Positions 16,528-29,873 of a DNA stretch of 64,000 nt are shown here, in pieces. This DNA comes from Vicinamibacterales bacterium. Lineage in GTDB: Bacteria; Acidobacteriota; Vicinamibacteria; Vicinamibacterales; 2-12-FULL-66-21. Within the stretch, counting starts at the first letter, position 1; every line of letters starts with the position of its first letter. A model generated the notes under the pieces. The model had not been told where the DNA came from. It saw only the letters and a program-made list of their open reading frames with translations, and ran no database searches. A program made the position numbers and the translations under genes. The stretch covers positions 1-64,000 of the forward strand of contig DASSPH010000046.1 of assembly GCA_035699745.1 (NCBI GenBank). Direction: 5' to 3'.

Positions 16528-16872
16528 ATGCCCGATCCCGCACGCGCGCTGCGCCTGCGCGTCGGCCGCGCGATCCAGCGGCTCCGTCTCGCGCGCGGCT
16601 ACAGTCAGGAGACGCTCGCCGAGCGCGCGCACAGCTCCGGCAAGTACATCGGCGCGATCGAGCGCGGCGAAACCAACGCCGGCCTCGACGTGCTCGGACG
16701 GATTGCCGCCGCCCTGGCGGTCGATCCCGCCGACCTCCTCGTCCCTCCCCGCGGCCGCGGCCGCATCGAGGCCGCGCATCTCATCGCCCGCGCCGATCTC
16801 GACACGCTGGTGGAAATCGTGCAGCGCGTGAAGGCGGTCCGCGCCCGCCGAACGCCTCGCGCCGCACGGTAG
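16528..16872 (+). CDS. XRE-family helix-turn-helix regulator
   Basis: A 114-residue DNA-binding protein with one HTH_3 domain at about residues 10-65: VGRAIQRLRLARGYSQETLA, then SSGKYIGAIERGETNAGLDV, ending in LAVDPADLL. The C-terminal 45 residues are charged and may aid dimerisation. It is divergent from the sigma-factor gene (45-base gap) and convergent with a second, similar XRE gene at 17022, suggesting an ancestral duplication-inversion or cross-regulation. Confidence 0.88.
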   Translation: MPDPARALRLRVGRAIQRLRLARGYSQETLAERAHSSGKYIGAIERGETNAGLDVLGRIAAALAVDPADLLVPPRGRGRIEAAHLIARADLDTLVEIVQRVKAVRARRTPRAAR

Positions 16873-17021: not shown

Positions 17022-17420
17022 TCAACGGGTGCGGCGGGGCGCCCGGCTGGTGAGCGGGCGCGGCTTCGGCGAGAGAAGCCGTTCGACCGCCGCCGTCAGC
17101 GCATGGAGCGCCGCGGTGGCGTCCGCGGCCTCGCTCGCGGGCGGCCACACCGGGGCGCCGGCGGACGGCGTGATCGTTTCGAACAGCTCGCCCACGGGCA
17201 CACGCAGCGCGCGGGCGAGACGCACGAGCACGTCGGCCCCGGGATCAGCCTTCCCGAGTTCGACGCGGCCAATGTACTTGTAATTCAAGGAAGCCAGTTC
17301 AGCGAGAGCTTCCTGCGTCATCCGCCGCTCGAGGCGGAGGCGGCGGAGCTGCGCTCCGAGCGGCCGCAGAACGGCCGGCCGCGGTGGTGGTTTCTCTTGT
17401 GCCGGCTTCCGACGAGACAC
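17022..17420 (-). CDS. XRE-family helix-turn-helix regulator
   Basis: A 132-residue protein with an HTH_3 domain at about 20-80 (LGAQLRRLRLERRMTQEALA, LNYKYIGRVELGKADPGADV, LRVPVGELF). Its KYIG-x-x-E-x-G and DVL-x-R-x-A-x-AL pattern closely follows the XRE protein at 16528, so they are likely paralogues. A basic tail rich in Pro/Arg follows the domain. Its 5' end overlaps, head to head, the region just upstream of the ECF gene at 17474, so it may control that promoter. Confidence 0.87.
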   Translation of the reverse strand: MSRRKPAQEKPPPRPAVLRPLGAQLRRLRLERRMTQEALAELASLNYKYIGRVELGKADPGADVLVRLARALRVPVGELFETITPSAGAPVWPPASEAADATAALHALTAAVERLLSPKPRPLTSRAPRRTR

Positions 17421-17473
17421 AGGCTGTTGTGTACCGCACAGCCCTGGTCAGTAGAACCACCTATCGAGGGCAC

Positions 17474-18163
17474 ATGCGCAAGATAGTAACATCTATCGAG
17501 CCTGGCCGCGACGCCGGCGCGGCCGGGGAGGAGTCGGACGCCGAGCTGGCGCGCGACATGTGCGCGAAACGCGCCGAGGCGCTCGAGCGCATCTTCCATC
17601 GCTACGTACGGCTCGTCACCGGCATCGCGCATCGCATTCTCAACGATCGCGCCGAGGCCGAAGACGTGACCCAGGAGGTGTTCCTGGAGATTTACCGCAA
17701 GGCCCACCTCTACGCGCCGTCACGCGGATCGTTCAGAGTCTGGCTGCTGCAATACGTCTATCACCGCACGCTGCGCCGGAAGGCGGTGCTCCGCCGCCGC
17801 GCCGCATACGGTGGCCAGCCGATTGAGACCCTTGACGAGCCGGCGCCGGACCTTCGCCCGGCACTGACCCGCGACGAGTGCCGGTGGATCCTGAACGGGC
17901 TGTTCGCGCAGCTGCCGGTCAATCAGCGCATCACGCTGGAGCTGACGTGCTTCGAGGACCTGCCTCTCCGCGACGTCGCCGCGCGGCTGGGCGTGTCGGT
18001 GGGGAGCACGCGCCACTATTACTACCGCGGCCTGGCCCGCCTGCAGCATAGCGTTCGCGTCAGCGAGCGACGCTCGCCGGCCGCGGAATGCCATGACGTC
18101 TCACGATCCGGTAGAGCTGGTGCCGCGAGACGCCGAGATCCGCCGCCGTACGCCCGAATCTGA
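17474..18163 (+). CDS. ECF-family RNA polymerase sigma factor
   Basis: A 229-residue sigma factor. Region 2 lies at about 35-105 (HRYVRLVTGIAHRILNDRAE, EDVTQEVFLEIYR). Region 4 lies at about 140-195 (LNGLFAQLPVNQRITLELTC, RDVAARLGVSVGSTRHYYYR). ATG 17474 is chosen because GAGGG lies just upstream and homology starts soon after; longer frames begin inside the divergent XRE gene. The last 35 residues are Arg-rich, overlap the convergent sigma-54 activator by 104 bases and look unconserved. No anti-sigma gene is adjacent. Confidence 0.82.
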   Translation: MRKIVTSIEPGRDAGAAGEESDAELARDMCAKRAEALERIFHRYVRLVTGIAHRILNDRAEAEDVTQEVFLEIYRKAHLYAPSRGSFRVWLLQYVYHRTLRRKAVLRRRAAYGGQPIETLDEPAPDLRPALTRDECRWILNGLFAQLPVNQRITLELTCFEDLPLRDVAARLGVSVGSTRHYYYRGLARLQHSVRVSERRSPAAECHDVSRSGRAGAARRRDPPPYARI

Positions 18164-19058
18164 ACCCGTTGCGGTGCAGCGCGTCGACGACGCGATCGAG
18201 CGGTGGGAAGGCTGGAACCGGCGCGCTCGCCTGCGTCGAGCGCAGCTGGCGCGGCAGATGCCTCGTCGTCAACACCGGCTCGCCGCCGGCGGCGACGACC
18301 ATCCGCTCGAGCACGTTCTCCAGCTCGCGGACGTTTCCCGGCCACGTGTGTCCAATCAGCACGTCGAGCACCGCCTCTTCGATCGCCGGCGGGAGGCGGC
18401 CGCGCCGGGCCGCCAGCCGGCTCACGATCGCCGCCGACAGCATCCGCACGTCGTCTTTCCCTCGACGCCGCAGCGCCGGCACCACGAGCTCGAAGACGTC
18501 GAGGCGATAGTAGAGATCCTGACGGAACCTGCCGCGCGCGACCGCCGCCGCGAGGTCGACGTGCGTCGCCGCGATGACGCGCACGTCGAACGCGCGCCGC
18601 TGCGATCCGCCGAGCCGCTGCACCGTGCGCGACTGGATCGCGCGAAGCAGCTTCATCTGCACGTCGGCCGGCAGTTCGCCGATTTCGTCGAGCAGGACCG
18701 TCCCGCCGTCCGCGCGCTCGAACGGACCGGCGCGATCGTCGACGGCGCCGGTGAACGCTCCCCGTACGTGCCCGAACAGCGCGTCTTCGGCGAGCGTGGC
18801 CGGCATTCCCGCGCAGTCGATGACGACGAACGGGGCGCACCCGCGGGGGGACGCGCGGTGGATGGCCTCGGCGACGCGTTCCTTGCCGGTCCCGGATTCG
18901 CCGGCGATGAGCACGCTGACGTGCGGATCGGCCGCCACCGCGCGCATGTCGCGCTTGAGGGCCGCGATCGGCGCGGACACGCCGTCGATCTCGGGGAAGT
19001 CCTCGCGCGCGTCGAGCTCGAGGCAGCGATCCCTGCCGAACGGGCGTATCCGGGCCAC
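18060..19058 (-). CDS. Sigma-54-dependent AAA+ transcriptional activator, no receiver domain
   Basis: A 332-residue NtrC-type protein made only of the AAA+ core and a FIS-type DNA-binding end. Walker A GESGTGKE is at 53-60, the sigma-54-contact loop GAFTGA at 100-105 and Walker B VLLDEIGELP at 121-130. The arginine-finger region FRQDLYYRL and the TWPGNVRELENVLERM sensor-2 block follow, with a recognition helix near 300-325. It lacks any N-terminal sensor, so its activity is probably set by expression or partner binding (PspF-like). No convincing -24/-12 element is visible nearby. Confidence 0.9.
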   Translation of the reverse strand: MARIRPFGRDRCLELDAREDFPEIDGVSAPIAALKRDMRAVAADPHVSVLIAGESGTGKERVAEAIHRASPRGCAPFVVIDCAGMPATLAEDALFGHVRGAFTGAVDDRAGPFERADGGTVLLDEIGELPADVQMKLLRAIQSRTVQRLGGSQRRAFDVRVIAATHVDLAAAVARGRFRQDLYYRLDVFELVVPALRRRGKDDVRMLSAAIVSRLAARRGRLPPAIEEAVLDVLIGHTWPGNVRELENVLERMVVAAGGEPVLTTRHLPRQLRSTQASAPVPAFPPLDRVVDALHRNGFRFGRTAADLGVSRHQLYRIVRRHGIPRPASVAR

Positions 19059-19099: not shown

Positions 19100-19510
19100 T
19101 CAGCGGTCGCGGTAGACCGACAGCCAGGTGAGCCCGAAGGCGAGCCCGGCGTAGAAATACGCCGTATCCGACACGCCTTGCACGTGCAGCGCCGCACGCT
19201 CGATCCGCTCCCGGTCGGCGAACTCGAGCGCCGCGCCGCGCACGGCCGCCTTCCACGACGCGCGCGCCTGCGCCTGCCCGAGATGCCGCCGGGCGATCAC
19301 GTCGATGGCGGTGAACAGCTCGTGGTCGCCCCGCGAGGCGGGATCGAAGATGCCCCGCGATGGCACTTTCCGGACTGCGAGCGCCGTGAGATCCCGCAGC
19401 GCCTGCGCGTGTCCTTTCGGACATTCACGCGCCGCGGCGCGGAAGACGTGACGGAAATGCGGCGGAAGGTCGGGGGTGACGGACTTTGCGGACGGCGAAC
19501 GGCGCGGCAT
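19100..19510 (-). CDS. Hypothetical protein
   Basis: A 136-residue protein I do not recognise. It is basic and helix-rich, with one hydrophobic stretch near the C-terminus (DTAYFYAGLAFGLTWLSVYRD, about 115-134) that could be a short membrane or buried helix. ATG 19510 has a good AAGGAG five bases upstream, which decides against the longer frame starting near 19657. It lies between the sigma-54 activator and the divergent RiPP cluster, with no evident link to either. Confidence 0.6.
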   Translation of the reverse strand: MPRRSPSAKSVTPDLPPHFRHVFRAAARECPKGHAQALRDLTALAVRKVPSRGIFDPASRGDHELFTAIDVIARRHLGQAQARASWKAAVRGAALEFADRERIERAALHVQGVSDTAYFYAGLAFGLTWLSVYRDR

Positions 19511-19668
19511 GACGGCTCCTTCGTGGAGTGACGTGCGGGTCGCGGCTTGCCGCTGTGCCAGCGGGTGCGGCGCCAGGTGAGGGATCGGATGGGCGCGCGC
19601 AGTGAGAAACGAGCAAGCGAACACGGTCAGGCTAGCGCCCTCCACCCCGAAAGACAAGCGAGAAGGTC

Positions 19669-19800
19669 ATGCCAACTCTCCCGCTGCGCGAGGCGCGCGC
19701 GCACGGCGCGCGCACGGCCGCGCCGCCGCCGATCGCGTCCAACCGTGCGGATTTCACCTCGTTCGCCGCGGCACGGCGGTTGCGCGAGGCGCGGGCGTGA
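19669..19800 (+). CDS. Small ORF coupled to the RiPP cluster (43 residues)
   Basis: A 43-codon frame with an Ala/Arg-rich product and strongly GC-rich third positions. GAGAAGG lies just before its ATG and its TGA overlaps the GTG of the PqqD-like gene, the usual sign of translational coupling. It carries no lasso leader motif and no plausible ring residue, so it is probably not a precursor. It may be a leader ORF that sets expression of the operon, or a chance frame. Confidence 0.4.
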   Translation: MPTLPLREARAHGARTAAPPPIASNRADFTSFAAARRLREARA

Positions 19801-20087
19801 ACCGCACGATCGACGACGATCGCTTCCACCCGTCTCCTTCGGTCAGGGCGTCGGTCTCGGGAGACGGCCTGGTGCTGCTCGACATGAGCGGCGGCCTCGT
19901 CCTCTCCTCGAACGCCGCCGGCGCCCGCATCTGGGAGCTGCTCGAGCAGCGCCGCGCGCGACGCGAGATCGCCCGGCACCTCGCCGGCGAGTATGCCATT
20001 CCACTCGATCGAGCCGAGCGGGACGTCGCCGCCTTCGTTGCGGCGCTCGTCGCGCGCGGCCTGGTCGTCGCGGACGGACGGCCATGA
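19797..20087 (+). CDS. PqqD-like RiPP recognition protein (lasso B1)
   Basis: A 96-residue PqqD-family protein: short N-terminal strands (VSGDGLVLLDMSGGLVLSSN), the NAAGARIWELLEQRR helix and a winged C-terminal part ending in VAALVARGLVVAD. In lasso-peptide pathways the stand-alone B1 protein is the RiPP recognition element that binds the precursor leader and presents it to the B2 protease. GTG 19797 is chosen because it overlaps the upstream small ORF stop and homology starts directly after it. The stop overlaps the next gene as ATGA. Confidence 0.87.
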   Translation: MNRTIDDDRFHPSPSVRASVSGDGLVLLDMSGGLVLSSNAAGARIWELLEQRRARREIARHLAGEYAIPLDRAERDVAAFVAALVARGLVVADGRP

Positions 20088-20473
20088 CGGCAAGGCCGCT
20101 TCGCCGTCTCGCGCTGGTGTCGCGCGCGTGGATAGAGCTGGCGCGATTCGACCTGAGACGTCCGGCGGGGTTCGCGCGGCAGTGCGCGCTCCTCGGCCGC
20201 ACGAGCGTATCGGCCCCTCCGTCCCTGGTGACGGCGGAGGACGTCGTGTGGGCCGTGGACGAAGCCTGCGTCTGGTACGTAAAGCGCGCCGCTTGCCTGC
20301 AGCGCTCGTTCGTCGCGGCGCGCCTGCTGCGCCGCTGCGGCTTCGCCGCCGAAATGGTCATCGGCTGCCGTCCGCTGCCCTTCGAGTCGCACGCGTGGGT
20401 CGAGATCGACGGCCGTGTCGTGAACGACCTGCCGCAGTATCGCCGCGCCTTCACAGTGCTCAATCGTCTCTGA
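20084..20473 (+). CDS. Lasso peptide leader protease B2 (transglutaminase-like Cys protease)
   Basis: This 129-residue protein matches the lasso B2 family over its full length. The catalytic triad is visible: Cys71 in CLQRSFVAARLLRRCG, His103 in FESHAWVEIDG, and Asp115 in VVNDLPQ, 12 residues after the His as in McjB. The enzyme cuts the leader from the precursor so that the cyclase can act. It overlaps the B1 gene by four bases, and the cyclase gene follows after nine bases, giving the standard B1-B2-C order. Confidence 0.92.
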   Translation: MTARPLRRLALVSRAWIELARFDLRRPAGFARQCALLGRTSVSAPPSLVTAEDVVWAVDEACVWYVKRAACLQRSFVAARLLRRCGFAAEMVIGCRPLPFESHAWVEIDGRVVNDLPQYRRAFTVLNRL

Positions 20474-20482
20474 ACCGGAATC

Positions 20483-22213
20483 ATGGCGATCCAATCAGGC
20501 ACGTTCACCTTCGATCGCGGCGCCGTCCTCGATGACCACGGCGGGAGCCTGCGCCGGCATCCCTCCGGTCTCGCCGCCACGTTCGACGGGCGGATCGACA
20601 ACGGCGACGAGATCCGCATGCGACTGCCGGACGCGGCGAATGACGCGGCCGACGCCGACCTGGCGCTCTCGATGTTCGAGCGATGGCGAACGGCCGGTCT
20701 CGGATCGATGGTCGGGGAATGGGCGCTCGCGATCTGGGACCCGCACCGGAGAACGCTGCATCTGGCGCGCGACTACATGGGCGCGCGGCCGCTGTATTAC
20801 GCCAGGGCAGCTGACGGCGTGCTGTGGTCCACCGACCTGGCCGACGTCGTGGTCCGGGCCGGCAGCGCCGACGAATTGAGCGATCGCTTCGCGGCCCGGT
20901 TCATGGCGCTGGCGCCGCATCCCGACACGACGCCCTACGAGCGCGTGCACGCGGTGCCGCCGGGCGTGTGCGTCTCGATCGCCGCCACGGGCGGCATCAC
21001 GCAGAGCCGTTTCTGGCACCTGCGCGCCGACGACATCCGCTATCGCGACCCGCGCACCTACGAAGAGCATTTGCGGCGGCTCTGGCGGGACGCTGTGCGG
21101 TCGCGGCTTCGCACCAGCGAGACGGTGTGGGCGGAATTGAGCGGCGGTCTCGACTCGTCGTCCGTCGCGTGCATGGCGGGGCTCCTCATCCACGCCCGGG
21201 CAGCCGCCGCGCCGGCAATCCGTTTCGTGTCGCACGCCACGCTGCACTCCCCGGAAGGGGACGAACGGCGGTTCATCGCGGAGGTGGAGCGCCGCGTCGG
21301 CGTGCGAACCGAGATCGTCGGCGTCGAGGAGAGCCAGAACGACGCCGACCCACGACGCGCGTGGCTGACGCCCTACGCGCTTCACGGCGTCGGCCTGGCG
21401 ACCGTGCGGCGCGTCCGTGCCGGCGGAGGACGGCTCGTCCTCTCCGGGCGGCTTGGCGACGCCATCATGGGCTGTCAGCCCGACAACAGCATCGCGGTGC
21501 TGGACGATCTGCGGAGCGGACACGCGCTCTCGGCGCTGCGCAACATGCGCGCATGGAGCCGCGCCACGCGCAAGCCGTTCGTCGAGATCGCCTGGGGGCT
21601 GCTTGCCGGCGACCGTCGCGCCGCACCGGACGGCGGCCTCGCACTCCTGACGCCGGACCTGCGCGCGCTGGTGCGCGACCTGCGCGCTCCCGAGCCGCCG
21701 GCCGACGTGCGTCGTTCGAAGCGGCCACTCGCGCGCATGCTCCTGGGCTATGCGGCTGGAGCGCGTCTCGACATTCCCGACCGCTCGCCGGACGTCGTCT
21801 ACAGCTATCCGTTCACGCACCGGCCGCTCGTCGAGTTCATGCTCGCGATTCCAGGCGAGCAGTTGAGCGCGCCGGGCGCGACCCGCGCGCTGATGCGGCG
21901 CGCCTTCGCGACCTTCGTGCCGCCACGAATCATCAGCCGCATCTCGAAGGGCTACTACCCGCCGGCTGCGTACCGCGCCGCACGCCGCGCGGTCGCCGCA
22001 ATGCAGGTGCGTGACCTGGAAGTGGTGCAGCGCGGATGGATCGATCCGGATCGCCTGCAGGCCGCGATGCACGCCCTCAGCGCCGGCGGCGGCGAGAGCG
22101 GCGGCGAGATCCACGCCGTGCTCAGGCTCGAGGCGTGGCTGCAGGCCCGTCGTCACACCGCTACAACGCCACAACGGAAGGAGGTGAACACCGATGAAGT
22201 ACTCCACGCCTGA
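20483..22213 (+). CDS. Lasso peptide macrolactam synthetase (asparagine-synthetase-like, protein C)
   Basis: A 576-residue asparagine-synthetase homologue. The N-terminal half keeps the glutaminase fold (GEWALAIWDPHRRTLHLARD, GARPLYY) but lacks the Cys2 nucleophile of true glutamine-dependent enzymes. The synthetase half has the PP-loop SGGLDSS at 220-226. In lasso pathways this enzyme adenylates a side-chain Asp or Glu of the core and closes the ring with the new N-terminus. Its last codons overlap the first precursor gene by 20 bases, and the precursor's ribosome site lies inside it. Confidence 0.92.
   Translation: MAIQSGTFTFDRGAVLDDHGGSLRRHPSGLAATFDGRIDNGDEIRMRLPDAANDAADADLALSMFERWRTAGLGSMVGEWALAIWDPHRRTLHLARDYMGARPLYYARAADGVLWSTDLADVVVRAGSADELSDRFAARFMALAPHPDTTPYERVHAVPPGVCVSIAATGGITQSRFWHLRADDIRYRDPRTYEEHLRRLWRDAVRSRLRTSETVWAELSGGLDSSSVACMAGLLIHARAAAAPAIRFVSHATLHSPEGDERRFIAEVERRVGVRTEIVGVEESQNDADPRRAWLTPYALHGVGLATVRRVRAGGGRLVLSGRLGDAIMGCQPDNSIAVLDDLRSGHALSALRNMRAWSRATRKPFVEIAWGLLAGDRRAAPDGGLALLTPDLRALVRDLRAPEPPADVRRSKRPLARMLLGYAAGARLDIPDRSPDVVYSYPFTHRPLVEFMLAIPGEQLSAPGATRALMRRAFATFVPPRIISRISKGYYPPAAYRAARRAVAAMQVRDLEVVQRGWIDPDRLQAAMHALSAGGGESGGEIHAVLRLEAWLQARRHTATTPQRKEVNTDEVLHA
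22178..22187 (+). promoter_or_regulatory. Perfect Shine-Dalgarno for the first precursor
   Basis: AAGGAGGTGA, the full complement of the 16S rRNA 3' end, sits six bases before ATG 22194 and inside the last codons of the cyclase gene. Most genes in this window have weak sites, so the precursor is set for far stronger translation than the enzymes. Confidence 0.85.
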
Positions 22214-22334
22214 ACTCGTGGTGCTCGGTTCGGCCGCAGCGCTGGTCCTCGGCGACGTCGAAGGGTATCTGGACAACGTGTCCACGTTCATGACGCGGCC
22301 GCCCGTTGGCGTCGCGCTCGGCGTCGACGAGTAG
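22194..22334 (+). CDS. Lasso-type RiPP precursor peptide 1 (46 residues)
   Basis: A 46-residue peptide opening with the lasso leader signature Y-x-x-P-x-L-x-x-x-G (Tyr3, Pro6, Leu8, Gly12) that B1 proteins bind. If the core begins at Gly20, Asp27 is its eighth residue and could close an eight-member ring, leaving a tail to Glu46. The usual Thr at position -2 is absent (Val18). The C-terminal GVALGVDE closely resembles that of precursor 2, while the centre differs. It follows the cyclase gene in the same operon and was too short for ordinary gene callers. Confidence 0.85.
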   Translation: MKYSTPELVVLGSAAALVLGDVEGYLDNVSTFMTRPPVGVALGVDE

Positions 22335-22364
22335 CGCCCCGCACGCGCGGCATCCCGCAGATGG

Positions 22365-22374
22365 AAGGAGGTGA
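22365..22374 (+). promoter_or_regulatory. Perfect Shine-Dalgarno for the second precursor
   Basis: AAGGAGGTGA lies five bases before ATG 22380. It repeats the site of the first precursor, showing that the duplication included the translation signal. Confidence 0.85.
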
Positions 22375-22379
22375 CAACC

Positions 22380-22523
22380 ATGAAGTACGCAGCCCCGGAG
22401 CTCGTCGTCCTCGGCTCGGCGTCCGCTCTCGTCCAGGGCAGCCAGATCGAAGGCCGGCTGGACAACGGTGACTCGGAGACGTCCAAGCCTGCCGCCGGTC
22501 TCGCGCTCGGTCTCGACGACTGA
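22380..22523 (+). CDS. Lasso-type RiPP precursor peptide 2 (47 residues)
   Basis: A 47-residue paralogue of precursor 1. The leader again has Tyr3, Pro6, Leu8 and Gly12 and is nearly identical through residue 17. With a core start at Gly20, Asp28 is the ninth residue, so this peptide would form a nine-member ring where precursor 1 forms eight. The middle (SETSKPAAG) differs from precursor 1, but an E-G-x-L-D-N block and the end GLALGLDD are shared. It lies 45 bases after precursor 1. No Thr at -2 is present (Val18). Confidence 0.85.
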   Translation: MKYAAPELVVLGSASALVQGSQIEGRLDNGDSETSKPAAGLALGLDD

Positions 22524-22583
22524 GGCGGCCACACCGGGGGACGGATCCGGCCATCGGAGTCGTCCCCCGGTTCCGCTGTTCCG

Positions 22584-23798
22584 ATGGATCAACGGCTGCA
22601 TCTCCTGATCGTCGATCGCCGCCGCGGCACGGCGCTCGCGGCGCGCTACGGGCCGCGCTGGCTGTGGCCCACGATCGCGTGCGGCGAGCGTGTCCGCGCC
22701 GGACTCGCGGCCGCGCGATGGTGCGCGGCGCGCGGCCTCGCCGCCGACATCGCGGGGCAGTGGCTCGGCAGGATAGACGCGGGCGTCAGCGACTGGCTGA
22801 TCGCGGTCGCAGCCCGCGGAGCACGGAGTGGCGCCGTCGCCCCGCTCGAGTGGATCGAGCTGGACGCGCTGCTCGACGCGGCGTCGGTGCTCGACTACCA
22901 GACCTGGGCGCTGGCACGATGCGTCCGGCGAGGCGCGATGCCTGAAGTCGACGGCCCATTCGGAAATCTCGACTGGCCGGCCCACGTGGGCGAATGGATC
23001 CGCGCGGCGGTCGACTCCGACGTGCGTGAGTGGATCCCTTATCGGATCAGCGCGCACGAGCTGGTCCTCGGCGTCGAGACTGCGAGGACCCGGGTCTTCT
23101 TCAAGGGGCTGACTGGGGCACGAACATCGGAGGCATGCATCACGCAGACGCTGTGCGCGGCGCTGCCGGACTCGTTCGCGCCGACTCTCGCGCTCGCGCC
23201 GCGCCCCGCAGCGACGGTGTGGTGGCTGACGGGATTCTGCACCGGGCACGCATGCCGCGATGCATCACTGGTGGCCACGGCGCTCGCGCGCGTGCAGCAA
23301 CGGCTCGCACTGTCGACCGGGGATGGCTGCAGCCTCGATCCGTTGCCGATCGAGCGCGCCGCCGCGTGGGCCGCGGCCGCACCGGCCGGCATCGAACGCG
23401 ACCTGACGATCGACGCGTGCGCCCACGTGATGGACGCGTCCCCGGCGCGTTCGTGGATTCCCATGGACCTCGATCCGTCCAACGTAGTCGCCGACGGGGA
23501 CCGCGTCCGCTTCATCGACGTCGACGACTCGTTCGCCGGACCGGCGCCGCTGGCGCTGGCGGCCTTTGCGCGACGCTGCGGCGACCGCAGCGGCTACGCC
23601 GCGTATGAACTCGCCTGGTCGCCGCCCCTCGAGGGGATCGACTGGCGCCGTCATGAGATCGCCGCGGCGGTCTTTCAGGCGTGGAGCGGACTCGAGTCAT
23701 TCAGACGGAACGCCGCGCGCGGTGAACTGCGCGCCGCGCCGGACGAGGTCGAGCTGCGCGTGCGGAAGCGCTTGGCGATGGAGCTTCACCGCCGGTAG
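22584..23798 (+). CDS. Putative RiPP-tailoring kinase: degenerate Nudix domain + APH-type phosphotransferase
   Basis: A 404-residue protein last in the RiPP operon. Residues 1-115 follow the Nudix fold pattern (LLIVDRRRG..., RWLWPTIACGE, GLAADIAGQW, PLEWIELDAL), but every acidic residue of the Nudix box is lost, so hydrolysis is unlikely. Residues 150-400 resemble aminoglycoside-phosphotransferase kinases: Lys174 in RVFFKGL, Glu183, catalytic Asp295 and Asn300 in MDLDPSN, and metal-binding Asp312 in FIDVDD. The usual His of HGD is replaced by Pro-Met. It may phosphorylate the lasso peptide or a small molecule; neither is shown. Confidence 0.65.
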   Translation: MDQRLHLLIVDRRRGTALAARYGPRWLWPTIACGERVRAGLAAARWCAARGLAADIAGQWLGRIDAGVSDWLIAVAARGARSGAVAPLEWIELDALLDAASVLDYQTWALARCVRRGAMPEVDGPFGNLDWPAHVGEWIRAAVDSDVREWIPYRISAHELVLGVETARTRVFFKGLTGARTSEACITQTLCAALPDSFAPTLALAPRPAATVWWLTGFCTGHACRDASLVATALARVQQRLALSTGDGCSLDPLPIERAAAWAAAAPAGIERDLTIDACAHVMDASPARSWIPMDLDPSNVVADGDRVRFIDVDDSFAGPAPLALAAFARRCGDRSGYAAYELAWSPPLEGIDWRRHEIAAAVFQAWSGLESFRRNAARGELRAAPDEVELRVRKRLAMELHRR

Positions 23799-26700
23799 AT
23801 GCCCGAGCCGATTGCGACGGGGCGATCGCGCAGCGTGAATCGCGGCGTCCGCGTCCAGGGGCGATCGATCTGGCCGCGCTCCAGGGCAGCGTCGAGCAAT
23901 TCGATCAGCAGTACCGAGGTCTTTCCCGCAACCGCATCGGGCAGCTCGACATCCGGCAGTGTTTCGCGCCAGCGGTTCCCGATGCCGCGTGCTCCCGCCG
24001 AAGCTCGCCCGACCGGCGGCCCGGTCGTGACGATCTCGTCCAGCACGAAGCTGCCCGGCGCGGCAGGAAACGGCGCCGCGTTGACGGCCGCGACCCAGCG
24101 TCCGGCGTTCGGCTTGCGGACGACCAGCGTGTGCGCGCCGGCAGCGGGGAAGCCGATGTCGTACGAGAAGCACTCGCCGGTGGAACAGTCGTAGACGTGC
24201 AGCTCGGCGGTCGCGCCCGCGCCGGCGCGCAACTGCAGCGACAGCGTCGCCGTCTCCGCCGGTACGTCGATGTCGATGACAGTCGGCAGCCCGGAGGGGT
24301 TGAAGCTGCGGCGATGTGATGTCAGGCGTGCCGGCGAGATCAGGAGCGTCGGTTCCGCGACAGCGCCCCTGACATTCGCGATCTCGATCGCGATGGTTCC
24401 ATCGGGTTGTGTGGAGGTGTCGATCGTGGCCTGCAGCGGCGCGACGGTGAAGCGGTACTCCGCGTCGCTGTCGTCTCCCTTCACGCCGCTTCCCGGGATG
24501 GAGAAGTAAGTCGATCCGGTGTCGATCCGAAGGGTCCACGTACCCGGCTGCGGATTGGGCAGCACGAGGCGGTAGGTGCCCGGACCCATGAACTCGAGAT
24601 TGTTCGGGTGGACGTGCATGTAGTAGCCGCTGTGCAGCCCGTGCGCGGCGATGACGGTCGGCCGGATGACGCCGCGAATGACCTGAAGGTCGAAGGCGAG
24701 CGCACGCACACCGGCGGGAACGCGGAAGTAGTGGGCTCGCTGCCGCATCAGGCCCACCGTTCCGGTCATGCGGATCTCGCCGGTGACGGCATCCGGCCGT
24801 TCGGTTGCGGCGATCGTTGCCTGGGTGCGGAAGACGACCGCCTTCGAACTTCGATCGCGAAGCGTCAGCAATCCGCTGTGCGCACCTGCTTCTTGGACCG
24901 CGATGCGAACCGGCAGCGACACGTTCGTCTGCAGCGGGAGCGTCACGGAACGCGCGGTGCTGAACGTGCCGTCGTCGGCGGACCAATCGACGTCGTAGGT
25001 CAGGGCTCGTGTCGGCCCCGATTCGCGGCGCAGCACGATCGTGCGCGTGGCTGTCATGCCAGGCGTCCATCCCTCGACCTCGAAGATGCCCGTACCCTGC
25101 AGACCGCGCGCCGAGTAGTGTGCGAGGGGGTGCAGGATCGACGCCGATGCCGTGATGCGCGGCGGATCGCCGCTTCGTGTGAGCGCACGCCAGGCGTCGT
25201 TGACGTTCAGCGCGCCATTGCCCTGCTGATGTGCCTGGAACCCGGGCACGAGCACCGCCGTCGTCCGCAGGGCGCGGCTCAACGTCTCGGGTGCGTACGA
25301 GACGCCCGTTTGCTTCGCGGCACTGATCAGCAGCGCGAGCACGCCGGCGGCGTACGGACTCGTCGCCGAGGTGCAGCAGCTGATCTGATACCCGGGCGGC
25401 AGGCGCCGGAGCGGGGTGTTGCGAGGCGAGGTCTCGATTCCCGCGTTCCACGGCAGGTCGGCCGACAGGCGTTCCATCGGCGCGAGGAAGTCCGGCTTGA
25501 TCGCGCCGTCGAGCGATGGCCCGGCTGCAGAGACGGGATGGACGATCGTGCGATCGAGCGCACGTCCGCCGTATAAGGCCGCGTACGTCTGCGGGCTGAG
25601 GATTCCGCCGACCGAGAGCGCCGCGCCGTAGGCGTGGACGCTTCCCAGCATCTGGCTGGTGTTCGCAGCCGACCAGACGATCGGCTTGCGATAGACCGCG
25701 ACGAGACGTCCGATCAGCTCGCCGGCGAAATCCGCGGCGGTATCCGGCACCAGTCCGACACCGAGCGACGCGCCGATGACGTCCACGTCCGGCCGCTTTG
25801 CCGCGGCGACGCAGCCTTCGAAGACTCTGGCGAGGTCCGGATCCGGTGAGGCGACACGTACGAGGAGCACGCGGGCGCCGGGCGCCACCCCGAACGCCAG
25901 CCCTTCGTCCGTCCGGCTGCCGGCCGCCACGCTCAGCGTCATGCTCTGATGGCTGCCGATGCTGACGTAGACGTGGACGACGTGCGGCTCGCGCCCGCGC
26001 GTCATCACGAACTGCACGGCGGCTCTGCGCGGATGCGACACGATCAGCGGCCGCGGCTCGAACCGATCGTTGACGTCGGCGAGCGGCGTCTCGTCCTTGA
26101 ACGACGCGTCGCCGTTCGCATCGAGCCAGACGCTTCCATCCGCGGGATCTTCCACGATGGCGAACTTGTGGACGAGATTGCCGCCGCCGGGCAGTTCGAG
26201 CACGCCGAATCTATACGTGCCGGGATGGGGAAGGAGGTAGGTCCGGTTGCCGACTCTCGTCCACGTGGTTCGTGCCTCGATGACGGTGTCGAGCTCGACG
26301 CGCGTCTCGTCGGCGCCCGGGGTGTCCGGCACGTTCAGGATGCCGGCGATCTTCGACACGTCGCGTCCGTCGAGTGTCGTGGCGCCGCGCAGCGTCGGGT
26401 CGCCGAACGACGGCAGCGCGTTTTCGAGCAGGGCAATCGTCACACCGCGGCCGTCGAAAGTCGGGTTTGCCTCGAGCCACCGACCGACCCCGACGTCGTC
26501 CGCCGTGAAGCCTTGCCTGCGAGATTCCGCGGCCGACAGCAGGGGCAGGTCGGGCCGGGTCGATGGGCGTTCGGGCGGCGCGATCGGTGTGGTCTCGAAC
26601 CCGCGAAAGAGTTCCGCGTTGCGGAGCGGCGGGCCGTCGCGGTACCACGCTCCACGCGACAGCGAGGCGATCTGGTAGGCCGCGATGTCGGCAGAGTCCA

Positions 26701-27007
26701 CAAGGTCGATCAGCCGTTCGGCGGGGATCTCGATCCGTAGATATCCAATGGCCGGTTCGGAGTGGCGGACGCGGCCGCCGAACTGCGTCAGGCGCGACGA
26801 GACGCGCGCCGCCTCCGCGCCGGCCCGCTCTCCGGTCCCGGCGAGCAGGAGCATCACCTCGATCGAGGGGAGGCCGCTGAGGACGGCGCGATTGAGGAGC
26901 AGCCGGTTCTGGAAGGACATGCGCCGCGGCTCCGGCCGCGGCGGCGCTGTCGGCGCGGAGACGAGTGCGGCGCACAGCGCAGCCGCTGCGGCCGCCGGAA
27001 GGCGCAT
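23786..27007 (-). CDS. Large secreted subtilase (S8, TPP II-like spacing) with Asp-to-Glu change
   Basis: A 1073-residue secreted protein with signal peptide at 1-18. The S8 blocks are recognisable: VTIALLENAL at 189-198, where the catalytic Asp of VLDTG is Glu195; GSHQSMTLSVAAG with His353; WSAANTS with Asn449; and CTSATSPYAAG with Ser547. About 150 residues separate the first two blocks, as in tripeptidyl-peptidase II. Beta-sandwich and PPC-like regions follow Ser547. It begins one base after the TonB-receptor stop, and its 3' end overlaps the convergent RiPP kinase gene by 13 bases. Confidence 0.82.
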   Translation of the reverse strand: MRLPAAAAAALCAALVSAPTAPPRPEPRRMSFQNRLLLNRAVLSGLPSIEVMLLLAGTGERAGAEAARVSSRLTQFGGRVRHSEPAIGYLRIEIPAERLIDLVDSADIAAYQIASLSRGAWYRDGPPLRNAELFRGFETTPIAPPERPSTRPDLPLLSAAESRRQGFTADDVGVGRWLEANPTFDGRGVTIALLENALPSFGDPTLRGATTLDGRDVSKIAGILNVPDTPGADETRVELDTVIEARTTWTRVGNRTYLLPHPGTYRFGVLELPGGGNLVHKFAIVEDPADGSVWLDANGDASFKDETPLADVNDRFEPRPLIVSHPRRAAVQFVMTRGREPHVVHVYVSIGSHQSMTLSVAAGSRTDEGLAFGVAPGARVLLVRVASPDPDLARVFEGCVAAAKRPDVDVIGASLGVGLVPDTAADFAGELIGRLVAVYRKPIVWSAANTSQMLGSVHAYGAALSVGGILSPQTYAALYGGRALDRTIVHPVSAAGPSLDGAIKPDFLAPMERLSADLPWNAGIETSPRNTPLRRLPPGYQISCCTSATSPYAAGVLALLISAAKQTGVSYAPETLSRALRTTAVLVPGFQAHQQGNGALNVNDAWRALTRSGDPPRITASASILHPLAHYSARGLQGTGIFEVEGWTPGMTATRTIVLRRESGPTRALTYDVDWSADDGTFSTARSVTLPLQTNVSLPVRIAVQEAGAHSGLLTLRDRSSKAVVFRTQATIAATERPDAVTGEIRMTGTVGLMRQRAHYFRVPAGVRALAFDLQVIRGVIRPTVIAAHGLHSGYYMHVHPNNLEFMGPGTYRLVLPNPQPGTWTLRIDTGSTYFSIPGSGVKGDDSDAEYRFTVAPLQATIDTSTQPDGTIAIEIANVRGAVAEPTLLISPARLTSHRRSFNPSGLPTVIDIDVPAETATLSLQLRAGAGATAELHVYDCSTGECFSYDIGFPAAGAHTLVVRKPNAGRWVAAVNAAPFPAAPGSFVLDEIVTTGPPVGRASAGARGIGNRWRETLPDVELPDAVAGKTSVLLIELLDAALERGQIDRPWTRTPRFTLRDRPVAIGSGIYRR

Positions 27008-27008
27008 C

Positions 27009-29873
27009 TCAGAAGGCGGCGCGGATCACGATCTGCGCCGAGCGAGGACGCTGCCGATCGATGGTGACGCCGAACAGCGGGTTGTAGGTCTGGTTGGCGC
27101 CGAACTCGAAGCCGAGATCCGCGCCGCGATTGGCGGCGTTGAAGACGTCGAGGCTCGCGTCCAGCTTCACCCGGCGCAGCGTAAAGCGCCGCCCGGCCCG
27201 CAGGTTGAGGACGTGCAGGTCGGGCGTGCGCAGCTGGCCTTCGCCGCGCGTCGGATAGGCGAATCGCAGCAGGGTCGCCAGCGGGTTGCTGACGGTGCGG
27301 CCGTTCGACAGGGTCACCGTCGGCGGTCCGAAGGCCGGATCCGGCGCGGACACGCGCGTGACGATCGGTCCGGACCAGGTGCCGGACTGGAACGTGTAGT
27401 TCGCCGAGAGCATCAGCGACCACGGCGCGTTGACGGCGGCTGCCGCGCGGACGACGTGATCCTGCCATTGCGCGCTCGCGGTGACGCTCTGCGTCATGTG
27501 GAAGCCGCTCAGGCTGTTCGAGTCGAACGTCGCGGTGGCGGTGCCGGTCGAGCTGCCGATGCCCCTGTCGTTCGCGAACGCCTCCGGCTGGATGAAGCCG
27601 GCCGGATCGTGCGGCTGCCACGTCCCGTCGATGTGCCGCCACTGCCGCACGTAGCTGACGAGCGTCTGCACGCGGGGCGTGTGTTTGGTCAGCGACAGTT
27701 CGAGCGAGCTGTAGACCGGGGTGTTCCAGCGGTTGTTCGTCGCGGCGTAGATGTCGTTCTGCGACTCGTTGATGTACCCGGCGAACGTGCGGCCGTTGAA
27801 CCTGCCGTTGGTCTCGAGCAGGGTGGTGCGGTCGACGAACCGCCGCCGCGCGACGTCGACGTTCGCGGCGATGCCGCGCGGCAGCTGGCGGCTGTAGCCG
27901 GCGCCCCATTCCTGCACGTACGGCTGGTGCAGGTCCGGATCGATCGTGCGATTCAGGATCGTGCCGGTCGTCGGCGGGGTCACGAACACCGTCTCGAACG
28001 TGCCGTCCAGGTTCAGGTCGTACAGATCGCGCTGCCCGACGGTCGGCGTCCCCGTCGTGGTGACGATGCCGGGCTGATCGTGGACGCGAGCCCAGTGTGC
28101 GCGGGCGACGTTGCGGCTGTCGGCGGTGAGGGCATGGTTCACCCCCGCGCGCGGCCCGACTTCGAGGCTGCGCTGCGTGGTGAGGTGGAAGACCGTGTCC
28201 TCGACGAGAATCTGATCGACGCGAACGCCGGCGGTGACGGTGATCCGCGGCGAGGGGCGCCAGGCATCCTGGACGTACGCGGCGAGATCGCGCGCCGTCT
28301 GGTTGAACGTCGTCAATTCGGGCCCGTTCATGATCTGCCTGTGGAACGCGATCGATCCGCCGGTGAGCACGCCGGCTTGCCGCAGGACGTGCTCTTCGAG
28401 CGTGAACCCGTCGTTGGTGTAGACGAGGTGGTTCCCCTGGACGCGACGCTGCGCGAAGAGGCCGGCCTGGATCTCGTGCGCCGTCGATCCCTGCGAGAGA
28501 TAGAGCGTGGCGTCGAGCGAGCCGGTGATCTTGTCGTTCGGCTGTGTCGGCCGCGAGAGCACGGGGCTGCCGAGGCTCGCGAGCTGGCCGTTGCCCGTGA
28601 GCCGTCCGCCGGACGCGATGGTGCCGCTGTAGATGCGCAGGTTGGGACCGCCGGCGCCGGAAGTGAGCCCTTCGCGGCTCTTGTCGTTGTAGCTGACGCC
28701 GGCGCGCGTGGTCAGCCGGTTGGACCAGATCGACGACAGGCGTACGGATGCCGCGGACCCGCCGGTGGCCTGTCCCGACGGGAACTGGCTGGTCGCGCCG
28801 ATCGTGAACACCGGATTCGCGTCTTCCTGGTAGAACGCGGCGAGCTGGTGACGTCCGGCCTGGGCGGTGATCTTCGTCATCCAGAAATGCGCCTGGTTGG
28901 TGCTGTCGATCGGCTCGAATCCGCTGACGAGCGCGCGCAGCGCGGCGAGCTGCGCGGCGCTGCGGCTCACGCCCGTCGAGGTGTCGACGTGGCGGAACGA
29001 CCCGAAGCCCCAGACGCGATCGCGGAGCACCGGGCCGCCGAGCGAGAGATCGATCTGGGTCTGATCGACGGCCGTGCTGGTGCCGCCGGGCTGGTTCGAA
29101 TCGTTCCAGCGACGCGGCTGCGCGAACACCGTGGCGGCCCCTCTGACGCGATTGGTGCCGCTCGCCGTCGCGATGTTGATCACGCCGCCGCTGCCGAGCG
29201 GCGCCGCCGCGCTCGGACCTCCGGTCTGAATCTGGATGTCGTCGATCGCGTCGGTGTTCAACTGCACGTAGCTGACGCCGGGCCTGCCGGCCGCCGTGAC
29301 ATCGGCCCCGTCGATCTGCACCAGCGTCATCCCGGTATCCGAGCCGCGGACGTAGAACAGCTTCGAGCCGGCGAACTCCGAGGTGACGACGCCCGGCGTC
29401 GCCGCGAGCGCGCCGTACCATTCGCGGCGCTCGGTGAGCGGCACGCTTCTGAGCAGCTCGCCGCTCACGTTCACCGCCTGCGAGCCGTGCCGCGTGTCGA
29501 GCAGCGGCGTCTCCATCCGAACCTCCACCGTCTCGCCGATTCCACCCACGACCATGGTGAGGTCCACGGTGGCGGCGAGCCCCGCCCGCACCACAACCGC
29601 CGCGCGTTTCACGGTGGCGAACCCGGCGATCTCCGCGGTGATCTCGTATTCCGCCGGCGGCAGATCCGTCAGGTGATACGTGCCGGTACGGTCGGTCGTC
29701 GTGCGATAGACGCCCGGCGCGCCATCACTGCGCGCCGAGATGGCGACGCCCGGCATCGCCGCGCCTTGTTCGTCCTTCACCGAGCCGCTCACGCGGCCGC
29801 CGGCGGGCGTTTGCGCCGCCAGCCACGCCGGGGTCATCAGGGTCAGCAGCAGGGCACCGAACACTCCGCGCAT
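27009..29873 (-). CDS. TonB-dependent receptor with carboxypeptidase-regulatory N-domain
   Basis: A 954-residue outer-membrane protein. A signal peptide (1-20) is followed by an Ig-like carboxypeptidase regulatory domain (about 25-110, GRVSGSVKDEQGAAMPGVAI). A plug domain follows (LVQIDGADVTAAGRPGVS, IDDIQIQTGG, GSGGVINIATASGTN) and then a long beta-barrel ending in a C-terminal Phe. Such receptors import or surface-handle polymers and peptides in Acidobacteria. It heads a two-gene operon with the subtilase, so the substrate may be a peptide. Confidence 0.9.
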   Translation of the reverse strand: MRGVFGALLLTLMTPAWLAAQTPAGGRVSGSVKDEQGAAMPGVAISARSDGAPGVYRTTTDRTGTYHLTDLPPAEYEITAEIAGFATVKRAAVVVRAGLAATVDLTMVVGGIGETVEVRMETPLLDTRHGSQAVNVSGELLRSVPLTERREWYGALAATPGVVTSEFAGSKLFYVRGSDTGMTLVQIDGADVTAAGRPGVSYVQLNTDAIDDIQIQTGGPSAAAPLGSGGVINIATASGTNRVRGAATVFAQPRRWNDSNQPGGTSTAVDQTQIDLSLGGPVLRDRVWGFGSFRHVDTSTGVSRSAAQLAALRALVSGFEPIDSTNQAHFWMTKITAQAGRHQLAAFYQEDANPVFTIGATSQFPSGQATGGSAASVRLSSIWSNRLTTRAGVSYNDKSREGLTSGAGGPNLRIYSGTIASGGRLTGNGQLASLGSPVLSRPTQPNDKITGSLDATLYLSQGSTAHEIQAGLFAQRRVQGNHLVYTNDGFTLEEHVLRQAGVLTGGSIAFHRQIMNGPELTTFNQTARDLAAYVQDAWRPSPRITVTAGVRVDQILVEDTVFHLTTQRSLEVGPRAGVNHALTADSRNVARAHWARVHDQPGIVTTTGTPTVGQRDLYDLNLDGTFETVFVTPPTTGTILNRTIDPDLHQPYVQEWGAGYSRQLPRGIAANVDVARRRFVDRTTLLETNGRFNGRTFAGYINESQNDIYAATNNRWNTPVYSSLELSLTKHTPRVQTLVSYVRQWRHIDGTWQPHDPAGFIQPEAFANDRGIGSSTGTATATFDSNSLSGFHMTQSVTASAQWQDHVVRAAAAVNAPWSLMLSANYTFQSGTWSGPIVTRVSAPDPAFGPPTVTLSNGRTVSNPLATLLRFAYPTRGEGQLRTPDLHVLNLRAGRRFTLRRVKLDASLDVFNAANRGADLGFEFGANQTYNPLFGVTIDRQRPRSAQIVIRAAF

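Follow-up and report, generated by a model that had tools for sequence, protein, structure and literature searches.

The window, the whole 64-kb stretch of DNA analyzed here, carries on its forward strand a compact cluster of B1, B2, C, two precursor genes, and a kinase-like gene, K, at positions 19797–23798. B1 (19797–20087, + strand) is a PqqD-like RiPP recognition element (RRE; PF05402, 2.5e-16) with 56–69% identity to its counterparts in five other loci. The leader peptidase B2 (20084–20473, +) matches NF033537 (lasso_biosyn_B2) at 9.3e-22 (77.8 bits; cut-off 33), and its triad Cys71-His103-Asp115 is intact in each of five sequences aligned, one of them from the window. C (20483–22213, +) is an Asn-synthetase-like lasso cyclase (PF00733 Asn_synthase, 9.7e-32; 51–58% identity in four loci), and all four cyclases compared contain SGGLDSS and lack Cys2. 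The three proteins of a lasso pathway, an RRE-type B1, a B2 with Cys-His-Asp, and an Asn-synthetase-like C, are all present. The order B1-B2-C-A(-A)-K is the same in four other genera, at 35–70% protein identity, with a sixth locus partial; because these genes recur in identical order, the arrangement reflects more than chance. The cluster is confirmed as real, and lasso formation from it, with a predicted threaded topology, is very likely. A preliminary description had already proposed a lasso-type cluster with these same B2 residue numbers and this cyclase motif, and the family matches, catalytic residues, and conserved precursors bear it out. No B2 relatives were found among viral contigs.

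The preliminary description also counted a small ORF at 19669–19800 as part of the cluster. This is an open frame whose status as a gene is unsupported: we rejected it because none of five related loci contains a significant match to the encoded peptide and because a conserved promoter-like site and the beginning of B1 both fall within it. Its best match (E 0.010) falls elsewhere in the respective locus, and the corresponding place yields only E 3.3 (L013).

Two precursor genes follow the cyclase, delineated from an alignment of nine precursors from five loci. A1 (22194–22334, +; 46 aa, core Gly20-Glu46) starts within the 3′ end of C and is preceded by a Shine-Dalgarno-like GGAAGGAGGTGA; cleavage is predicted after Leu19 and the ring from Gly1 to Asp8. 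A2 (22380–22523, +; 47 aa, core Gly20-Asp47) has a predicted Gly1-Asp9 ring; its reading frame can be extended to a GTG at 22371. Both leaders contain the motif Y-x-x-P-E-L-x-x-x-G and score 17.8 and 18.1 bits with a lasso-leader model, slightly below its cut-off of 19. Every one of the nine precursors carries the leader motif and Gly1 and has Asp as the eighth or ninth core residue, so that the two 46/47-residue peptides described previously stand, and the case named there as contrary, homologs with unconserved peptides, is the opposite of what was found. More than one acidic residue lies within core positions 7–9 in the L012 peptide and in both L013 peptides, and the ring position for A1, A2, and both L011 precursors was taken from the alignment.

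Position −2 of the leader is Val, never Thr, in all nine precursors. This does not disqualify them: phosphorylated lassos with Ile or Val at −2 are known, and BsfA still loses its leader, according to the accessible portion of PMC10368454. Past the ring Asp, by 4 and 7 residues, two tail columns are Ser/Thr in every precursor; at least one invariant Ser/Thr column arose in 5e-5 of the trials in a shuffle test, and two arose in none of 20,000. The cores end in a conserved acidic GxALGLD[DE], of which Gly, Leu, Gly, and Asp are common to all nine.

K (22584–23798, +; 404 aa) has an N-terminal part without known fold, and the window protein itself matches no Pfam or NCBIfam model. Its assignment to the APH kinase superfamily, rather than to the HPr-type lasso kinases, is supported through its homologs. 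Against PF01636 (cut-off 23.2), one of four close homologs scores above the cut-off (36.9 bits), one slightly below, and two have no match, and three of four distant relatives score above it (29.1 to 44.8 bits). No HPr kinase model is matched by these homologs, and an HPr-type identity was therefore rejected; PadeK and ThcoK are HPr-kinase-like. The four distant relatives, elsewhere in the phylum, also sit in lasso loci. K174, E183, D295, N300, and D312 are invariant in all nine K sequences, the usual histidine of the HxD motif is replaced by Pro in this family, and the L013 protein lacks ~50–60 residues in its middle. An AlphaFold2 model, based on the window and L032 only, was poor (mean pLDDT 35, pTM 0.22) and so gives the fold no structural support. 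The APH-like tailoring gene of the preliminary description is thus upheld via homologous PF01636 matches and invariant catalytic residues and not via the window protein itself. Phosphorylation of the lasso precursor by K is likely, with predicted sites in the tail.

Immediately upstream of B1 lies a sigma-54-type promoter motif, GGCACG-N4-TTGC (19770–19783, +). It is the sole exact match in 64 kb, with 0.34 expected, which is not rare by itself because 29 of 100 shuffled sequences hold one. The motif precedes B1 in all six loci, exactly in five and with one mismatch in L011. About 95–160 bp before the promoter, an intergenic alignment of the six loci reveals a conserved block (19609–19676, +), a possible enhancer site. 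Further upstream, on the opposite strand, is a sigma-54 activator gene (18060–19058, −) encoding an AAA+ domain (PF00158, 1.7e-61) and a Fis-type HTH, with no match to a receiver domain; it is matched in all five related loci, in L013 and L034 as two pieces in different frames. Upstream of the activator gene and on the same strand, a gene at 19100–19510 (−) encodes a 136-aa protein without assigned family or Pfam match, which is 52–58% identical in five other loci; its structural model, an all-helical guess at pLDDT 49.8, was too poor to use. A role for it as a general partner of sigma-54 activators was rejected, as no similar activator lies near five weak homologs (L054–L058). An ECF-type sigma factor gene (17384–18163, +; Sigma70_r2 and r4_2; start codon uncertain) is present in four of the five related loci.

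On the far side of the cluster, K converges on a gene for an S8 subtilase of 1073 aa (23786–27007, −; PF00082, 5.2e-18) with the triad Glu195-His353-Ser547 and the oxyanion residue Asn449. Its N terminus, judged by eye, resembles a signal peptide. The 3′ ends of the two genes overlap by 13–16 bases in all five K-bearing loci, which represent five genera. The triad acid is Glu and not Asp in all six subtilase copies that cover the site, five of them beside lasso genes, and His and Ser are present; a cousin S8 without lasso genes carries the Asp. The closest solved relative in sequence is tripeptidyl-peptidase 2 (3lxu, 2.4e-16), with partial coverage. Subtilases of this family (at least 40% identity) occur in six of 193 genomes of the class, and five adjoin K; in the sixth (G037), two partial tandem copies lie on a 3.3-kb contig without context. 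An S8 profile search of contigs from named genomes returned two loci only, L033 and L032 (JAOBWF010000234.1, identical in DNA to L011). L032 derives from a genome of the same order (G048) and is the basis for placing the host in the phylum Acidobacteriota. Our literature search, with most subscription papers outside its reach, found no report of a subtilase in lasso clusters.

Next to the subtilase is the gene for a TonB-dependent receptor of 954 aa (27009–29873, −), which comprises a Plug, a CarboxypepD_reg domain, and an outer-membrane barrel and has orthologs at 57–71% in three loci. The two genes adjoin in the window, L011, and L012; one gene intervenes between receptor and subtilases in G039, and the L013 contig stops short of the receptor position. 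Apart from orthologs, the receptor's best matches in five genomes are its counterparts in two lasso loci of the S9 kind (43% and 45%) and in the Asp-type S8 pair (46%), at 758–864 bits, the next best being 509. Beyond the receptor, a gene at ~30–32 kb encodes an amine-oxidase-like flavoprotein.

The S8 subtilase occupies the slot that an AtxE-type S9 isopeptidase fills in related lasso loci. S9 peptidases are present in six other lasso loci (L023–L026, L052, and L059), and for all four that were searched against the PDB the best match is AtxE2 (9e-28 to 5e-20). L010–L013 and L029–L031 gave no AtxE-like match, and the window has only weak S9-like stretches (21–22%) at 37.8–39.8 kb. No LasD exporter had been seen in the preliminary description, and this holds for the ABC type: none of 29 ABC_membrane (PF00664) rows from five genomes is on a cluster-bearing contig. 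The locus therefore pairs a receptor with a peptidase and lacks an ABC exporter, and its peptidase is not of the AtxE-type S9 kind. This layout is not strictly dependent on K, because L052 has Val(−2), a receptor, and an S9 peptidase and gave no match in a search for APH-type kinases.

From the computed gene content, conservation, motifs, catalytic residues, promoter match, and convergent layout, we consider the best explanation, on balance a probable one, to be a receptor/peptidase-type cluster for a phosphorylated lasso, in a member of the Acidobacteriota, with a Ser-His-Glu subtilase standing in for the lasso isopeptidase. Transcription of B1-B2-C-A-A-K would begin at the sigma-54 promoter, driven by the neighboring activator. 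B1 would bind either precursor, A1 or A2, by its YxxPEL leader, and K would phosphorylate the precursor while it is still linear, the likeliest sites being one or both invariant Ser/Thr residues of the tail. B2 would then remove the leader, cutting behind Val(−2)-x(−1), and C would link Gly1 to Asp8 (A1) or Asp9 (A2). The mature peptide of 27 or 28 residues would exit via an exporter encoded elsewhere and re-enter through the TonB-dependent receptor, after which the adjacent, probably secreted subtilase would linearize or degrade it, probably doing the job of the AtxE-type S9 enzyme. Replacement of the lasso isopeptidase is a plausible predicted role for the subtilase, which could equally trim the tail or perform general proteolysis, and Glu in place of Asp might weaken it. 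The fuller proposal, that a secreted Ser-His-Glu S8 subtilase is a second, unrelated fold for lasso linearization that replaces the AtxE type and acts with the TonB receptor on a lasso phosphorylated by an APH kinase, is offered tentatively, with somewhat less than even confidence.

The lasso cluster could instead be an ordinary one that includes an APH-like kinase, with the subtilase and the receptor as conserved neighbors serving a separate purpose, for example peptide scavenging. A related receptor and Asp-type S8 pair in G191 (L027) would agree with this, having no lasso matches in its two flanks of ~5 and 8 kb and no B2 among the matches listed for its contig, as would the abundance of TonB receptors of this general type, for which each of five genomes has 32 to 71 matches. 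The convergent 3′ overlap throughout the five loci, the rarity of the subtilase family away from K, and the shared subfamily of this receptor and those of S9 lasso loci make such independence unlikely. Less credible still is a subtilase that acts as a maturation protease and removes GxALGLD[DE] as a follower, with the receptor serving another ligand. The C terminus is among the best-conserved parts of the core, which is unusual for a product tail, and tripeptidyl-peptidase 2, the nearest solved sequence relative, is a peptidase that acts on linear chains. A maturation enzyme, however, would fit poorly with the signal-peptide-like N terminus and with a gene on the opposite strand, together with the receptor and outside the lasso operon; moreover, L052, with its S9 peptidase, likewise ends in an acidic tail, LDTDE.

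A further alternative concerns K, which might phosphorylate Ser/Thr merely en route to dehydration or another modification, yielding a lasso with dehydro residues. APH-like kinases phosphorylate toward dehydration in some lanthipeptide pathways, and the combination here of an APH-type kinase with two invariant Ser/Thr columns would suit such chemistry. A dehydroalanine-containing lasso peptide is also cited in the reference list of PMC13352647. With no lyase model among the Pfam matches of the island genes scanned, we regard this outcome as very improbable.

The newest part of the phospho-lasso reading is the convergent subtilase, the TonB receptor, and the sigma-54-type promoter, all of which the first reading missed. 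For the pairing of lasso peptides with an untying enzyme, the consulted sections of PMC9266682 offer hypotheses only. If our reading is true, a layout that has been kept while the peptidase fold was swapped and a kinase of another superfamily was added would count as independent evidence for uptake and linearization being the purpose of such clusters. The locus also offers a natural comparison, S8 with S9 and Glu with Asp, and its likely sigma-54 switch provides a handle for finding the inducing condition.

Among known systems, the closest in layout are the astexin (AtxE), sphingopyxin, and benenodin clusters, which, in the available text of PMC9266682, likewise have no ABC exporter and have a TonB receptor, a sigma factor gene, and a Ser-His-acid peptidase beside the operon. 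The same text gives absence of an ABC exporter as the rule in nearly all isopeptidase-type clusters and a Ser-His-Glu/Asp triad for AtxE-type isopeptidases. The lack of such an exporter here is no proof of the preliminary suggestion that the product may remain within the cell. Unlike those clusters, whose peptidase is of the S9 prolyl-oligopeptidase type, the present one has an S8 subtilase, a sigma-54 activator, and a kinase gene, and neither a GntR nor an anti-sigma gene was noticed in it. The catalytic Asp of tripeptidyl-peptidase 2 (3lxu) aligns with the Glu of the lasso-associated subtilases, in a match that covers only part of the protein.

A kinase within the cluster is shared with the phosphorylated lassos of paeninodin PadeK, ThcoK, and BsfK (PMC9266682 and PMC10368454, in the portions available), and a residue other than Thr at −2 with BsfA and the Acidobacteriaceae (PMC10368454, likewise). 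BsfK is described there as HPr-kinase-like at low identity. Unlike these three enzymes, K is of APH type, and the sites predicted for it are in the tail rather than at the C terminus or at ring Ser3. The preliminary description held that such a family was poorly described. This holds in part. The acidobacterial BGC 482.1 is tabulated in the accessible part of PMC9064862, by annotation only, as containing two precursor genes and a kinase of the aminoglycoside phosphotransferase kind. Ile/Val(−2) precursors have been reported in Acidobacteriaceae, and all such clusters found by those authors encode a kinase or phosphotransferase (PMC10368454, in part). As far as PMC9064862 was accessible, BGC 482.1 resembles our cluster and L023–L026 in having B1, an APH-like kinase, B2, and C, and its two precursors, of 141 bp, reportedly carry Leu and Ser at −2, where ours have Val. 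In loci of the BGC 482.1/L023–L026 type, the kinase lies between B1 and B2, or after C in L025; L023–L026 carry an S9 peptidase versus the S8 subtilase here, and their kinases are only 17–19% identical to K.

The genes reported in the preliminary description, namely B1 (a PqqD-like RRE, 19797-20087), the leader peptidase B2 (20084-20473), the lasso cyclase C (20483-22213), the precursors A1 and A2 (22194-22334 and 22380-22523), and the kinase-like gene K (22584-23798, 404 aa), are all present in the window. The cyclase carries the SGGLDSS motif and lacks Cys at position 2, as described, and the B2 residues Cys71, His103, and Asp115 are conserved in all five aligned sequences. The small ORF placed at the head of the cluster is indeed an open frame, but it matches nothing significantly in five related loci and lies over a site that resembles a promoter. 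A Shine-Dalgarno-like stretch, AAGGAGGTGA, lies upstream of each of the two precursors. All sequence features used to assign a locus to the lasso clusters were found apart from Thr at leader position -2. B1, B2, and C together would very probably form a lasso.

A search of 193 genomes of the class recovered K in five, the window's own included, with the order B1-B2-C-A(-A)-K repeated in four further genera (G039, G048, G192, and G133; loci L010-L013). Three of these loci contain two precursors and that of G192 one; the G048 locus (L011) corresponds to contig JAOBWF010000234.1, with which it shares an identical 60-base stretch. In a sixth genus (G033, locus L034), a 4.6-kb contig covers a sigma factor, an activator, a 136-aa gene, B1, and B2, and breaks off within C. 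Because lasso B2 genes are widespread (66 of 193 genomes above the cut-off, 68 at E 0.001), the K-type clusters constitute a small sub-lineage. One relative, G110, is unusually lasso-rich, with five B2 matches. The host also has a second lasso locus of a different type (G000:C88, L014:6683-12390), comprising a weak PqqD-like match, B2 (69.1 bits), a PF00733 cyclase, a leader-like peptide in which Thr precedes Gly, a protein of 315 aa that matches no Pfam family, and an NTP_transf_5 nucleotidyltransferase.

The K of the window gave no model match in domain-model searches. Among its close homologs, that of L012 scores above the APH cut-off of 23.2 bits (36.9) and that of L010 just below it (23.0), and those of L011 and L013 have no APH match; three of four distant relatives exceed the cut-off (29.1 to 44.8 bits), with L025 below (19.1). 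Lys174, Glu183, Asp295, Asn300, and Asp312 are invariant across nine K proteins, a pattern that fits a kinase active site; the HxD histidine usual in such kinases is replaced by Pro in the window family, and the L013 protein has a gap of some 50-60 residues in its middle. A profile of the nine proteins matched hygromycin-B 4-O-kinase in the PDB (7.5e-4). A profile search across the phylum (396 genomes) recovered K in seven, the four outside the class all belonging to one family (f26), which we infer to be Acidobacteriaceae. All four lie within lasso loci (L023-L026). PMC9064862 already tabulates an acidobacterial lasso cluster with an APH kinase and two precursors, so the presence of such a kinase is not new; no characterization of it was found in the literature searched.

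K probably phosphorylates the precursor. Across nine aligned precursors, with Gly20 taken as core residue 1, Tyr3, Pro6, Glu7, Leu8, Gly12, Ala14, Val18, and Gly20 are invariant, as are the ring Gly, the ring Asp, and a Gly, Leu, Gly, and Asp close to the C-terminal end. The ring Asp is core residue 8 in A1 and 9 in A2; the L012 peptide and both L013 peptides have more than one acid within core 7-9. Val18 occupies leader position -2, where Thr is usual and Ile is functional in BsfA; the same source reports Ile or Val at this position in Acidobacteriaceae, where every such cluster that its authors found has a kinase or phosphotransferase (PMC10368454). Ser or Thr, with both letters occurring, stands at +4 and +7 from the ring Asp in all nine peptides. 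In shuffles within the 11-residue linkers, which ignore the kinship of the peptides, at least one such column arose at a frequency of 5e-5, and none of 20,000 trials produced two. The predicted phospho-acceptors are Thr31 and Thr34 of A1 and Ser32 and Ser35 of A2.

The sequence GGCACG-N4-TTGC, the sigma-54 consensus, occurs exactly once in the 64 kb, at 19770-19783. With 0.34 exact matches expected by chance (at least one in 29 of 100 shuffles) and 12 one-mismatch matches against 9.5 expected, a single match is not rare, and the weight of the site rests on its position before B1. All six loci have it there, L011 with a single mismatch and the other five in exact form. A second exact match occurs elsewhere in L012, and the lasso genes of L023-L026 and of L052, a locus in G191, have no exact match ahead of them. 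A conserved block ~95-160 bp upstream of the site could be a candidate activator-binding place. The product of the nearby activator gene, which adjoins an ECF sigma factor gene, has AAA+ and Fis-type HTH domains and no receiver match; in L013 and L034 the match is split into two pieces in different frames, so this gene may be broken or misassembled there. The conserved 136-aa protein (19100-19510), divergent from B1 and without a Pfam family, is weakly matched in four further genomes, which lack K. Two XRE-type HTH regulators (16528-16872 and 17022-17420) adjoin the sigma factor, and a Ser/Thr protein kinase gene near the island (PF00069, 13590-15902), matched in L010 (45%) and partly in L011, is a candidate member of it.

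Overlooked in the preliminary description were two neighboring genes on the reverse strand: an S8 subtilase (23786-27007), convergent with K, and behind it a TonB-dependent receptor (27009-29873). The 3' ends of K and the subtilase overlap by 13-16 bases in all five K loci. The subtilase family occurs in 7 of 193 genomes: the five with K, where it always adjoins K, G037, and G191. On the 3.3-kb G037 contig, with no visible lasso context, one copy is represented by its end and another by its start, and G039 has two tandem copies separated from the receptor by one further gene, a 1082-aa beta-propeller amidohydrolase (L029:7636-10884). The triad acid is Glu in all six copies spanning the site (window, two of G039, G048, G192, and G037), the G133 fragment stopping short of it, and Asp in the G191 relative; the triad His and Ser and the oxyanion Asn are conserved in seven of seven. 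This G191 protein (31% identity) also adjoins a TonB receptor (L027:4958-11340), with no lasso match in the surrounding 19 kb and no B2 match listed on the same contig, and is possibly, with its receptor, the ancestral pair.

Lasso genes in L023-L026 and in two G191 loci, L052 and L059, have an S9 peptidase gene beside them on the opposite strand, together with a TonB receptor gene; the L024 and L026 receptors run past the ends of the stretches analyzed and are named by eye, and the cyclase is the sole lasso gene of L059 before the contig end. Against a Peptidase_S9 cut-off of 22.6 bits, L023, L024, and the two G191 proteins score 23.6, 32.3, 29.4, and 33.5, with L025 and L026 just below (22.0 and 21.9). 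The best PDB match of all four S9 proteins compared is the lasso isopeptidase AtxE2 (L023, 5e-20; L052, 1.9e-27; L025, 9e-28; L059, 2e-21). No AtxE-like match was found in L010-L013 or the further stretches L029-L031; the window has weak S9-like stretches at 37.8-39.8 kb. In L024 (6580-8613, Pfam) and L026 (9470-11491, by eye), the APH-like kinase gene and B2 flank a gene for a prolyl oligopeptidase, in addition to the S9 gene at the far end, and in L052 (9058-9675) B2 is preceded by two tandem B1-like stretches. The L024 and L025 peptides lack an acid at core 7-9 if cleavage follows Ile(-2)-x. Acidic C-terminal ends (GLDD, LDTDE, YEDNE, YEADE, and YESDE) are common in receptor/peptidase-type loci (window 22194-22523; L024, L025, L026, and L052) and are possibly a signal for the receptor or peptidase.

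Among the matches listed from five genomes, the window receptor is followed by orthologs (57-71%) and then by three G191 receptors (43-46%, 758-864 bits), one adjoining the Asp-type S8 and two in lasso loci with S9; the next match reaches 509 bits (38%), with a partial stretch in G039:C40 at 41%. In a tree of 14 receptors, the four S8-lasso receptors form one group (100/100), within a larger group of unsettled internal order that adds the G191 receptors and three long-branched others; the Acidobacteriaceae-type receptors are placed elsewhere. In 19 other lasso regions, picked from B2 matches by score and contig size rather than at random (some short, three matching no query), neither K nor S8 was found, S9 matched in two (L035 and L052), and the window's receptor type in one.

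On balance, we favor a subtilase that acts on the lasso peptide in some way; that it is the isopeptidase proper is a reading to which we give slightly less than even weight. No S8 subtilase in this role was found described in the literature searched. According to PMC9266682, isopeptidase-type lasso clusters nearly always lack an ABC gene, an absence that the window cluster shares; the defining enzyme of that type was not found in the window, but its layout is present.
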